This document shows, piece after piece, positions 29,162-33,409 of a DNA stretch of 64,000 nt. The position numbers were made by a program, and so were the translations under genes. The stretch is from Clostridia bacterium. GTDB lineage: Bacteria; Bacillota; Clostridia; Christensenellales; UMGS416. The notes below the pieces were generated by a model. It saw only the letters and a list, made by a program, of their open reading frames with translations. It was not told where the DNA came from and ran no database searches. Location: assembly GCA_016938675.1 (NCBI GenBank), contig JAFGUF010000031.1, positions 124,001-188,000 on the forward strand. The letters are read 5' to 3'. Each line of letters starts with the position of its first letter. The first letter of the stretch is position 1.

Positions 29162-31171
29162 TTAGATTGTTGAGTTAAATATGTACATAATGTCATTCTT
29201 GCTTATCGGCTTATAGAAATAGTATCCCTGGAAGAGATTGCAGCCATAGTCTGTAAGCAGACGCAGCTGGTCTTCTGTTTCCACGCCTTCTGCTACCAGC
29301 TCATATCCGTTCTTTTCGGATATTTCAACAAGCATCTTGGTTATGGATAAGCTTATTGCACTGGTCATTATGTTATCAACGAAGCTCTTATCCAGCTTGA
29401 TTTCATCAAAGTTGATAGTATGGAGCTTTGAAAGAGTAGAATACTCTGTGCCGAAATCGTCCATGGATATCAGGCATCCTGCTTCCTTTATTTCCTGCAC
29501 AACCTTTAGTGACCGTGTAAAGTCGCCTTCGAAGAAGGACTCTGTAACTTCGATGTTTATTACGCCCCTTGGGATGCTGTAGCGTTTCATAAGCTGCGCA
29601 AGCACTGTTGTAAATTCATCGTCAAACAGTTGCTGCGGTGATACGTTTACGGATATGCTGACCGGGTTATTGACGCAGTATCTTGTTCTCATAAAGTCGT
29701 TGTAGTCTCTGAAAACTGCCTCTATTACCATATATGCAAACTCATGTACTATTGACATGCGCTCAATACGGTTGATAAAATACCACGGTGAGAGTATTCC
29801 CTTTTCTGGATGATTCCATCTAGCCAAGGCTTCAAGCTTAGCTATCTTTTCCTTTTTGAAGTCCACTATTGGCTGATAATACATTATGAATTCATTATCG
29901 TAGAAAGCCTTTTCAATTTCATTTTCCCATCTGTGCTCTTCTACGATATCGTCAATCATCTTCTGGTCGAAAACGCACAGCTCATTTTTGCCTAGCTTTG
30001 ATGCGTTGGTATTGGCGATTTCAGAATACATTATTATTTCATCTACGCTTGCTGAATGCTTAGGCGCATACGCAATTCCGGAGCTTATTGAAAGGTTGTA
30101 TATTCCACCCCTTATAAGGGAGGCTTGCTTGATAAACTTGCGGGATGCGTTCTCTATCTGTGTTTCCACGGTGTATGGCATAACCACCATAAAGTCGCCG
30201 TCGCCTGTTTTGGCTACGAGCGCGTTATTCGGCGAATACTCCTTAAGGATAGTAGCGAATATTTTTACGCAGTCGTCGAAGGCGTTCTGTCCGTATATAT
30301 CCTTGGTATCTTTTATATTTTCAATGGAAAGGGTAATGACACCGTATTGGCTTGATGAAATATCGAGGGATTTCATGCCGTCTATAAGTCCGTCTCTGTT
30401 AAGTAATGTAGTAAGGCGGTCATGGGTAGCCAAATATTGCAGGCGAACTTCGTTTTTCGCCTCTTCTGTTACGTCGCGCAGATATACTATCATTCCCTTA
30501 TCAACATCAGACCTGTCAATAGGACTGATGCTCAGATTCAGCGTAACGGTTTTATTGCTGTCTGTTGTGAGCTTAAGCGGAAGGTTTTTAACGAATATTC
30601 CCTTGCGTGCCTTTGCAACCTCATATGCAACACAGGATGAGAAGTTGCTGGTGTCTGTTATGCTCTTTACGGTGGATGGGAATTCAGAGCGCAGTTCGTT
30701 TTTGGCAGGACATTGTGCATCCAGGCATTTTGTTCCGGATGTCTTAAAGCAAAGCACATTGTGCAGCTTTTTGCCAAGAAGCTCCTGCTCTTTTACTTCA
30801 AATAAGGCCAAAGTCGCAGGATTAACGAAGGTGATGTTGCCGCTCTTGTTCAGGCCGATAATCGGATCGTTTAATGATTGAACTATCTGTGATGAATATG
30901 CGCCGCCGCCCCTGCTTGCGCTTCTCTTTGCTTTTCCGCTGAATATTGAAAGCAGAATAAACAAAAAAGTTATTATTGCAATCATAGGAACAACAATGCT
31001 CAGCGGAACTGGGTCGTTCCAGCTGATTTCCTTAAGCATATCCAGGAATCTGTCAACTGAGAAATCCGGGGCGTATAAGGAGGCAGCATATGCGGCCGAA
31101 CTCACCCCATACGCAGCAAAAAGCGTTAGTGAGAAAATGAAAGCAATTATATACTTTTTACCCTTTTTCAT
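29162..31171 (-). CDS. Membrane PAS - degenerate GGDEF - EAL protein (probable c-di-GMP phosphodiesterase)
   Basis: The 669-residue protein has a signal-anchor helix (~8-29) and a second helix (~55-77), a PAS domain (~92-235), a GGDEF-like domain (~240-405) and an EAL domain (~415-665). The GGDEF motif is TGDGDF (322-327), and the metal-binding region has IENIKDTKDIYG, so cyclase activity is unlikely. The EAL part keeps KLEALARW (446-452), EVTESFF, MDDFGTEYS, DEIKLDKSFVD and VAEGVETE, so it should cleave c-di-GMP. The PAS domain holds Cys at 141, 149, 154 and 180, possibly a metal or redox site. Its own terminator and short promoter region suggest a single-gene unit. It could tune the pilus genes seen at 60-63 kb. 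Confidence 0.9.
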   Translation of the reverse strand: MKKGKKYIIAFIFSLTLFAAYGVSSAAYAASLYAPDFSVDRFLDMLKEISWNDPVPLSIVVPMIAIITFLFILLSIFSGKAKRSASRGGGAYSSQIVQSLNDPIIGLNKSGNITFVNPATLALFEVKEQELLGKKLHNVLCFKTSGTKCLDAQCPAKNELRSEFPSTVKSITDTSNFSSCVAYEVAKARKGIFVKNLPLKLTTDSNKTVTLNLSISPIDRSDVDKGMIVYLRDVTEEAKNEVRLQYLATHDRLTTLLNRDGLIDGMKSLDISSSQYGVITLSIENIKDTKDIYGQNAFDDCVKIFATILKEYSPNNALVAKTGDGDFMVVMPYTVETQIENASRKFIKQASLIRGGIYNLSISSGIAYAPKHSASVDEIIMYSEIANTNASKLGKNELCVFDQKMIDDIVEEHRWENEIEKAFYDNEFIMYYQPIVDFKKEKIAKLEALARWNHPEKGILSPWYFINRIERMSIVHEFAYMVIEAVFRDYNDFMRTRYCVNNPVSISVNVSPQQLFDDEFTTVLAQLMKRYSIPRGVINIEVTESFFEGDFTRSLKVVQEIKEAGCLISMDDFGTEYSTLSKLHTINFDEIKLDKSFVDNIMTSAISLSITKMLVEISEKNGYELVAEGVETEDQLRLLTDYGCNLFQGYYFYKPISKNDIMYIFNSTI

Positions 31172-31280: not shown

Positions 31281-32696
31281 TTAACGGATTATTTCGTCGT
31301 AAGAACCCTGGTAAACATAAGGATTGTATTCGAACTTCCACCATTGGTTTTCAATGGGTGAAAAACCGGCCTGTATCATAAAATCACGCAGAAGCTCACG
31401 GTTATATATCTGCTCTGCGCTAAGCCCATCGCACATATACGAACTATAGTCATCAAATACCATATAGCTGCCGCCCATATCTATTGGATTTCCGCTGATA
31501 TCCACTAAACTTACATTCACGGCCTGTGCGCGGATATATAGCCTGTCGGAATCATAGGTTAAATAATCCTGTTTTAATGCTATTTTATCAATGTCTTTGT
31601 AGTATTCTTCTTTTCCTGTAGTATCCTCTACATTATTGAGCCAGTCTCTTATCTGCTCGAATGCTGCAAGAGGGCGGTATGCTTCATATACTATCAGCTT
31701 TACTCCGTGCTGGCTGAGCATATCATTTGCAGTTACCAGTGCCTTTGCAACATCTGGCTGTGTTATTATCTGGTTGGCTTCGTATCCTTCCAGCGCTTCT
31801 CCTAGAATGTTGTCATCTGTTGCAAATTTTATATCCGCTTTAATATCATAATTATAGTCAGACAAATATACCAGACTGCCGTTTCCGATGCTTTCATATG
31901 GAAGCTGCGCTATCACAGGGTTTTTCGCCGGGTCAAGCCAGGCAATCAGCGTTTCAATGTTTTCTCTGCTTATCGCGGTGCATCCGTTGGTTCCCTTTTT
32001 GGGGCTCGTCCATATATGCAGGAAAATGGCGCTGCCTGCTCCTGATACTCTTTCGGGATTATATCTTATCTCGACGGCTCTTGCAAAGGCCGCGATATTG
32101 AGATTGCTGTATTGTTTCCAGTCCGGGTCTTCAATTGACCCTTCCTTAACATAGGTATTGTAGTATACTGAGTTAGGGTCTTCTACCCATATATCGCCAT
32201 CCTCTGTTGCGCGCCATGGCCACATTGTTCCTACAGGCGGTGTATCTTTTCCGAACGCATAGCCCAGCTCATAGATTCCTTCCGGGCTTTTGCCGTCGCC
32301 TTCAGCTTCCTTGCCGAGCCCGTTTTTGCCAATCTGCACATCAAAAGGGCCGTAAACAATCTGCCACATTCCGTTTTCCTGCTTCTCCATAAGGTACATT
32401 TTTTCGTCACGCTGGCCAACGCCAACAAAAATAAGCTGCGTACTTTCATCAGGGATATCCTGATTTATTAACAATCCGTTAAGTGAATACTTGGAGATTG
32501 AGCCAATGTCGAATACTTCTGGAGCTATTTCGGGTTCGTCAGTTGGCACCGGTGTGGCTTCTTCGGCTTTTTCAGTTGCATCAGTATTCACTGCTGCTGT
32601 ATTTTCAGCGGCAGATTCATCTTCAGCAGATTTATTATTTGTACAACTGCTAACCAGCAATAAAACTGAAAGCAGGATTAATGCAAATTTTTTCAT
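31281..32696 (-). CDS. Lipoprotein: YkuD L,D-transpeptidase fused to a catalytically degenerate VanX-like domain
   Basis: The 471-residue protein has lipobox VSSC (C18), an Ala/Glu/Pro/Thr linker to ~62, and a YkuD domain (~85-270) with KSPEGIYELG and the catalytic region FLHIWTSPKKGTNGC (H227, C239), which cross-links peptidoglycan. Residues ~300-465 resemble D-Ala-D-Ala dipeptidase VanX: YEAYRP keeps the structural Arg (341) and NPIDMGGSYMVFD matches the family. The zinc and catalytic positions are changed: the His and Asp of the SxHxxGxAxD motif become Tyr387 and Asn394, and the EWWH motif is QWWK (451-454). It is therefore probably a peptide-binding module, not a peptidase. Single gene between the c-di-GMP gene and pyrE. 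Confidence 0.85.
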   Translation of the reverse strand: MKKFALILLSVLLLVSSCTNNKSAEDESAAENTAAVNTDATEKAEEATPVPTDEPEIAPEVFDIGSISKYSLNGLLINQDIPDESTQLIFVGVGQRDEKMYLMEKQENGMWQIVYGPFDVQIGKNGLGKEAEGDGKSPEGIYELGYAFGKDTPPVGTMWPWRATEDGDIWVEDPNSVYYNTYVKEGSIEDPDWKQYSNLNIAAFARAVEIRYNPERVSGAGSAIFLHIWTSPKKGTNGCTAISRENIETLIAWLDPAKNPVIAQLPYESIGNGSLVYLSDYNYDIKADIKFATDDNILGEALEGYEANQIITQPDVAKALVTANDMLSQHGVKLIVYEAYRPLAAFEQIRDWLNNVEDTTGKEEYYKDIDKIALKQDYLTYDSDRLYIRAQAVNVSLVDISGNPIDMGGSYMVFDDYSSYMCDGLSAEQIYNRELLRDFMIQAGFSPIENQWWKFEYNPYVYQGSYDEIIR

Positions 32697-32743
32697 ACCC
32701 TTTATTTTAGCAAATACTTATAACTAAGTAAACATGAAATATA

Positions 32744-32768
32744 AAAAAACACACTGATTGTGTGTTTT
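32744..32768 (-). terminator. Intrinsic terminator of the pyr operon
   Basis: AAAACACAC and GTGTGTTTT pair around TGATT; on the minus strand the stem is followed by TTTT. It lies about 60 bases past the pyrE stop codon. Confidence 0.75.
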
Positions 32769-32830: not shown

Positions 32831-33409
32831 TTATTTAGCAGGTGTTCGGCTGCCGGGTTTTTTAAGAGGTATATCTGTCGAGCAGATGGGGCATTCATTG
32901 GCATCATAGCTAATGACTTCCGTCGTAAGCACAGCATGCTGTTTATATCCGAAATCGACCTTGCCGTTGCTTCTATCTACCACCAGGCCTACGCCTGAGA
33001 TATTCGCTCCGGTTTCTTTTACGAGCTCAATCACTTCAAATACTGACCCCCCGGTTGTAACCACGTCTTCTACTATCAGTATGTTTTGCCCGGGTGCCAT
33101 ATCGAATCCTCGCCGTATGGACATTATGCCATCTGTTCTCTCGGCGAATATATTTCGCGCGTTTAGCTTGCGCGCCACTTCATAGCTTAGTATTATACCC
33201 CCCATTGCAGGGCCGATGACTACATCAATATGATCGTCCTTGAATGCTTCGGCTATGTCAGATGCTATTTTTTCGCTGTATTCCGGGTATTCAAAAAGCC
33301 TTGCGCATTGCATATACGTGTCACTGTGCCTTCCTGATGTAAGTAAAAAATGTCCCTTTTGAATAACTTTTATTTCTTCGAATATTTTCAGAACGATGTC
33401 TTTGTCCAT
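32831..33409 (-). CDS. pyrE: Orotate phosphoribosyltransferase
   Basis: The 192-residue protein has the PRPP-binding motif ILIVEDVVTTGGS, the flexible-loop region FAERTDGIMSIRRGF, and LTSGRHSDTYMQCARL typical of the clostridial/thermophile PyrE type. It converts orotate and PRPP to OMP. The C-terminus bears CPICSTDIPLKKPGSRT, including a Cys pair found in this subgroup. It is the last gene of the pyr operon. Confidence 0.95.
   Translation of the reverse strand: MDKDIVLKIFEEIKVIQKGHFLLTSGRHSDTYMQCARLFEYPEYSEKIASDIAEAFKDDHIDVVIGPAMGGIILSYEVARKLNARNIFAERTDGIMSIRRGFDMAPGQNILIVEDVVTTGGSVFEVIELVKETGANISGVGLVVDRSNGKVDFGYKQHAVLTTEVISYDANECPICSTDIPLKKPGSRTPAK

Follow-up and report, generated by a model that had tools for sequence, protein, structure and literature searches.

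A Clostridia lipoprotein that joins a YkuD domain to a VanX-type domain lacking the zinc site

Why would a YkuD protein keep a whole VanX-like domain whose zinc ligands and catalytic residues are gone? The question is raised by a gene in the window, as we call the whole 64,000-nucleotide stretch of a Clostridia bacterium contig that was analysed. The original prediction placed a YkuD and VanX-like fusion at 31281-32696; both the coordinates and the two domains (by Pfam) stood, with the gene on the minus strand; the plus strand at 31281-32696 contains stops throughout. The features of the locus are as follows.

31281..32696, minus strand: whole gene, 471-aa YkuD-M15 lipoprotein (ORF, translation, Pfam)
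32643..32696, minus strand: lipoprotein signal peptide with lipobox V-S-S-C18 (sequence, lipobox rule; NCBIfam lipoprotein-signal matches only weak)
31914..32402, minus strand: YkuD domain, residues 99-261, with H227 and C239 (Pfam, subfamily profile)
31299..31874, minus strand: VanX-type Peptidase_M15 pseudo-domain, residues 275-466 (Pfam, phmmer, structure alignment)
31515..31538, minus strand: degenerate first zinc motif Y387-I-R-A-Q-A-V-N394, VanX H116 to D123 (phmmer)
31335..31346, minus strand: degenerate EWWH motif Q451-W-W-K454, VanX E181 and H184 (phmmer)
32746..32768, minus strand: terminator-like hairpin that separates the YkuD-M15 gene from the upstream ORF 32831-33409 (consensus scan)
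32704..32732, minus strand: promoter-like site immediately 5' of the YkuD-M15 start codon, with TG before the second hexamer (consensus scan)

The lipobox rule, by which V-S-S-C18 reads as a lipoprotein signal, would make the product a membrane-anchored, extracytoplasmic protein. The promoter-like site is weak, as the consensus scan found seven such sites against 5.5 expected; terminator-like sites numbered four against 1.8 expected. The upstream ORF (32831-33409, same strand) resembles by eye an orotate phosphoribosyltransferase, and a PAS-GGDEF-EAL gene (29162-31171 of the window) follows downstream on the same strand. In another genome of the family (G002), a GGDEF-type gene (L094:1123-2709), by eye a sensor with GGDEF, likewise lies 3' of the gene with the dead VanX domain, in the same orientation. 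This shared position is probably a coincidence, and a conserved operon was rejected because the two GGDEF genes differ in build and the other fusions have other neighbours.

Both domains score above the Pfam gathering cut-offs (YkuD, E 9.8e-10; Peptidase_M15, E 6e-27). The NCBIfam dipept_VanX model also matches (1.3e-32, 113 bits), below its equivalog cut-off of 320, and phmmer aligns the C-terminal domain over its length with VanX 1r44 (E 9.9e-26), covering both catalytic motifs. In this alignment the zinc ligands of VanX, which we take to be His116, Asp123 and His184, become Y387, N394 and K454, the catalytic Glu E181 becomes Q451 (EWWH to QWWK), and Arg R71 is retained as R341, all as the original prediction had read them by eye. 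Functional roles were also assigned, on our assumption, to VanX Y35, S114, D68, Y21 and D142, the last being presumably the contact to the amine of D-Ala-D-Ala. The stretch DMGGSYMVFD, proposed as a VanX-like motif, does align with VanX, but the counterpart of Asp142 is lost within it (M412); this residue is Q in the G002 orthologue and D in 56 of 56 relatives. PMC5778951 describes the roles of VanX Arg71 and Glu181, and PMC4087270 does so for Ser151 and Arg120 of the VanX-related LdcB; from the motifs, the LdcB pair would correspond to S383 and R341 of the window protein.

The M15 domain has a single histidine in the window protein (H330) and none in the orthologue, against at least two in all 73 other domains counted, which makes a VanX-type zinc site impossible. 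The AlphaFold model of the window protein (mean pLDDT 67.7, pTM 0.55, loop 382-390 below pLDDT 50) superposes over residues 277-469 on VanX 7-197 (Z 12.7, rmsd 4.2, 178 residues aligned), so that the structural comparison proposed as a check suggests no other register for the zinc ligands; a model of the M15 domain by itself was poorer (mean pLDDT 60.1, 4 sequences) and was set aside. Losses are enriched at the four catalytic columns in the window protein (Fisher p 0.019) and non-significantly so in the orthologue (p 0.11). The loss of the metalloenzyme is well supported. A pseudogene or a sequencing error was rejected, as the frame is intact, there is no frameshift and the orthologue is altered at three of the same four positions.

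The M15 survey used loci from the best 8 to 30 matches per search, dropping duplicates and domains of <150 residues; its queries derive from the window protein, so the sample is biased to the relatives of that protein. A scan of genome contigs with the window protein alone gave no relative, a second one with a two-row alignment as query gave 11 loci, and a scan of viral contigs gave two distant M15 loci. Among the 100 distinct M15 domains from these best matches, the five key residues (R/H/D/E/H) are complete in 94, a contig end truncates one, and three differ at one or two of these residues; only the window protein (RYNQK) and the G002 orthologue (RYDFS) have lost at least three. Changes at single loci include E181 to Arg in L023 of G033 (RWWH), a double change in L025 of G011 (R71 to Cys, H116 to Asn), and Lys for the catalytic Glu, with zinc ligands retained, in a 683-aa phage-contig protein ending in an M15 domain (L113:558-2609, IMGVR_UViG_3300007177_000328; NKWWH). 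At L033 and L057, domains of the M15 and YkuD subfamilies studied here follow a domain that, judged only by eye, resembles a HAD-type phosphatase.

At least 15 YkuD/M15 fusions occur among the matches examined, in both orders (five YkuD-M15, ten M15-YkuD), and they lie at several places in the M15 and YkuD trees, so that fusion must have arisen more than once. The active ones, found in the same phylum and in a Selenomonas ruminantium MAG (L054), share with the window protein the two domains in one chain and differ in having all M15 catalytic residues intact. The proposed search for the same fusion with the same substitutions therefore gave a divided answer: the five key residues are intact in 13 of the 15 (three with the YkuD-M15 order of the window protein) and lost in the window protein and the G002 orthologue, the latter partly different in its substitutions. 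In the window's family the fusion is present in two of eight genomes searched; in G477 the YkuD and M15 domains are encoded by neighbouring genes rather than in one chain, and 398 genomes drawn from the phylum gave no further YkuD-M15 fusion among the matches listed.

The YkuD half retains the catalytic H227 and C239, as had been stated, while the L,D-transpeptidase label probably assigns it to the wrong side of that family. At E<0.001 a profile of 23 subfamily members found in the PDB only Bd1075 (7o21, 7.5e-12), Csd6 (4xzz, 5.6e-8) and Pgp2 (6xj6 and 6xj7, 6e-7), all named L,D-carboxypeptidases in PMC10653827. According to that paper, many LD-TPases have Arg at the second residue after the Cys, and DpaA has Ala there (Ala145). 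The window protein reads C239-T240-A241, without this C-x-R pattern, and 21 of the 23 subfamily members have Ala at that position; C-x-R is present in two of the three other YkuD proteins of the window genome, L144 being outside that count. Fold scores against the model did not separate the groups (Bd1075 Z 12.3, Pgp2 11.0, Csd6 10.5, transpeptidases up to 10.9), and NCBIfam made no carboxypeptidase call for the window YkuD domain. The His-Cys spacing is also shorter than in the Csd6/Pgp2/Bd1075 group: the YkuD catalytic motif published in PMC4599014 is H(S/G/D)X14-19C, and H227-I-X10-C239 does not match it, so the activity is predicted by homology only. Taken together, the sequence features indicate that this half is probably of L,D-carboxypeptidase rather than L,D-transpeptidase type. 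Within the same family, a YkuD lipoprotein of this subfamily in G006 (L108:4762-5325) has Gly at the catalytic Cys column and is thus a dead YkuD.

The G002 orthologue comes from a metagenome assembly of another genus of the window's family and reads the same as L053 on contig JAGLOK010000129.1 of a Clostridiales MAG. It is 40% identical to the window protein (M15 37%, YkuD 46%) and shares the loss of the zinc site, which is therefore neither a one-off nor a sequencing error. In the YkuD tree the two proteins are sisters (support 98/81), joined (95/94) by a YkuD protein of G004, a genome of the same family in which that protein has no M15 domain and an intact M15 is a separate protein. As the M15 tree was a quick build in which two long branches meet, we base this sisterhood on the YkuD tree and on 14 derived M15 residues common to the pair, including Y387. 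A whole domain in two genera, shared derived residues and a single clade indicate that both proteins inherited a domain already dead and that its breakdown is not recent. The catalytic substitutions are Y/N/Q/K in the window protein and Y/D/F/S in the orthologue, with only His to Tyr in common; to judge by these residues, loss of the first His probably preceded the divergence of the two genera, and the other positions changed separately.

The two halves have since evolved at different rates, the acceleration being specific to the M15 domain. For the window-G002 pair the M15/YkuD path ratio comes to 2.00, compared with 0.22-1.51 (median 0.81) in 55 intact pairs and 0.56-2.36 in 22 mixed pairs, and the M15 branches of the two dead members measure 1.86 and 1.34, where the median is 0.17. 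The YkuD half is near-intact: from 26 columns conserved in at least 90% of 21 relatives, the window protein keeps 24 and the orthologue 25, whereas from the 43 M15 columns conserved in at least 95% of 56 relatives they keep 26 and 28. Both members retain 20 of the 39 non-catalytic conserved M15 columns, W452 and W453 included. The substrate-side residues R341, S383 and Y305 are also kept in both (probability of all three by chance ~0.12), which is no more than expected given those 20 of 39 columns, and no pocket residues of the M15 domain were kept beyond expectation in the pair.

With about even confidence, we see the protein as an active stem-peptide trimmer carrying a dead VanX domain as a positioning or regulatory module. 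The YkuD half, probably an active L,D-carboxypeptidase-type cysteine peptidase, would remove the D-Ala at position four of peptidoglycan stem peptides, and the C-terminal half would be a VanX-fold pseudopeptidase without catalytic zinc. The protein would descend from a fusion of two enzymes, a kind of fusion that persists with both active sites elsewhere in the class; in the window lineage the M15 half would then have lost catalysis and become an in-cis accessory module, which could position the trimming domain on peptidoglycan or regulate it, comparable to the unrelated NTF2 domain of Pgp2. The L,D-carboxypeptidase activity, the accessory role and any bound ligand are what we infer. PMC4599014 and PMC8038945 describe Csd6 and Pgp2 as L,D-carboxypeptidases that carry an NTF2 domain at the C-terminus; that of Pgp2 binds peptidoglycan, and the full activity of the enzyme depends on it (PMC8038945). 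They share with the window protein the YkuD subfamily, as does Bd1075 by profile. Csd6 and Pgp2, at least, also resemble it in having an accessory domain at the C-terminus, but theirs is NTF2-like and not a dead peptidase. The window domain matches VanX in its M15 fold, whole-length alignment and Arg71 (R341), and differs from it in lacking the three zinc ligands, Glu181 and Asp142 and in being part of a lipoprotein fusion. Stem-peptide binding by the dead VanX domain is no more than plausible, and a binding-only module is the best single reading because Pgp2 has a peptidoglycan-binding accessory domain in the same place (PMC8038945). A narrower idea, which we consider quite unlikely, is that the dead domain acts as an in-cis reader of peptidoglycan ends, which might bind stems that still end in D-Ala-D-Ala and in this way position or gate the adjacent YkuD trimmer; it arises because the domain keeps the substrate-side Arg, Ser and Tyr but has lost the zinc and the presumed amine contact Asp142, and since the penultimate residue of such a stem has no free amine, the loss of Asp142 would be compatible with holding it.

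The original prediction went further and took the consistent loss as a sign of selection for binding only. The loss is real and shared with the orthologue, but the substitutions differ by residue beyond the common His to Tyr and the M15 domain evolves faster than YkuD, so relaxed catalytic constraint fits at least as well. Slow decay is a serious rival, although on balance an improbable one: the M15 half would have lost its job and be drifting, kept only because it folds and is harmless. The differing substitutions, the two long M15 branches with their ratio of 2.0, and an intact SH3-M15 paralogue on contig C40 of the window genome all agree with this, but the domain is complete in both genera, has acquired no stop, frameshift or truncation over 3.2 changes per column, and holds on to half of its other conserved columns (the 20 of 39 above, with both tryptophans). 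Docking of a partner protein, or of the protein's own YkuD domain, in the degenerate groove would make it a regulatory pseudopeptidase, which we regard as unlikely. Here the model is the degenerate LytM domains of EnvC, NlpD and DipM, LAS superfamily cell-wall peptidase domains that also lack zinc and catalysis; in DipM the groove around the dead site docks autolysins, according to PMC10336132. Those domains, however, belong to M23 and usually act on amidases in trans, whereas Pfam finds only M15 in the window domain, where a regulatory role would follow by analogy only, and no gene neighbour is conserved across the fusions. That the M15 domain is still an enzyme, through another metal site or a metal-free mechanism, seems very improbable: the fold is retained and C422 and Asp and Glu residues could in principle be ligands, but histidine is wholly absent from the orthologue's domain and Q or F replaces the catalytic Glu, which rules out His-based chemistry.

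The YkuD/M15 fusion itself is not new, having been found repeatedly in either order, and it links two stem-peptide trimming chemistries. As far as our searches of genomes and papers can tell, the retention across two genera of a fused VanX-type domain that lacks its zinc site is new; searches of open-licence papers found neither such a fusion nor a dead VanX. To annotate the window protein as "VanX" or "dipeptidase" would be a mistake. The 15 fusions, 13 with a live VanX half and two with a dead one, would form a natural before-and-after series in which the conversion of a peptidase into a binding or regulatory module could be tested directly.
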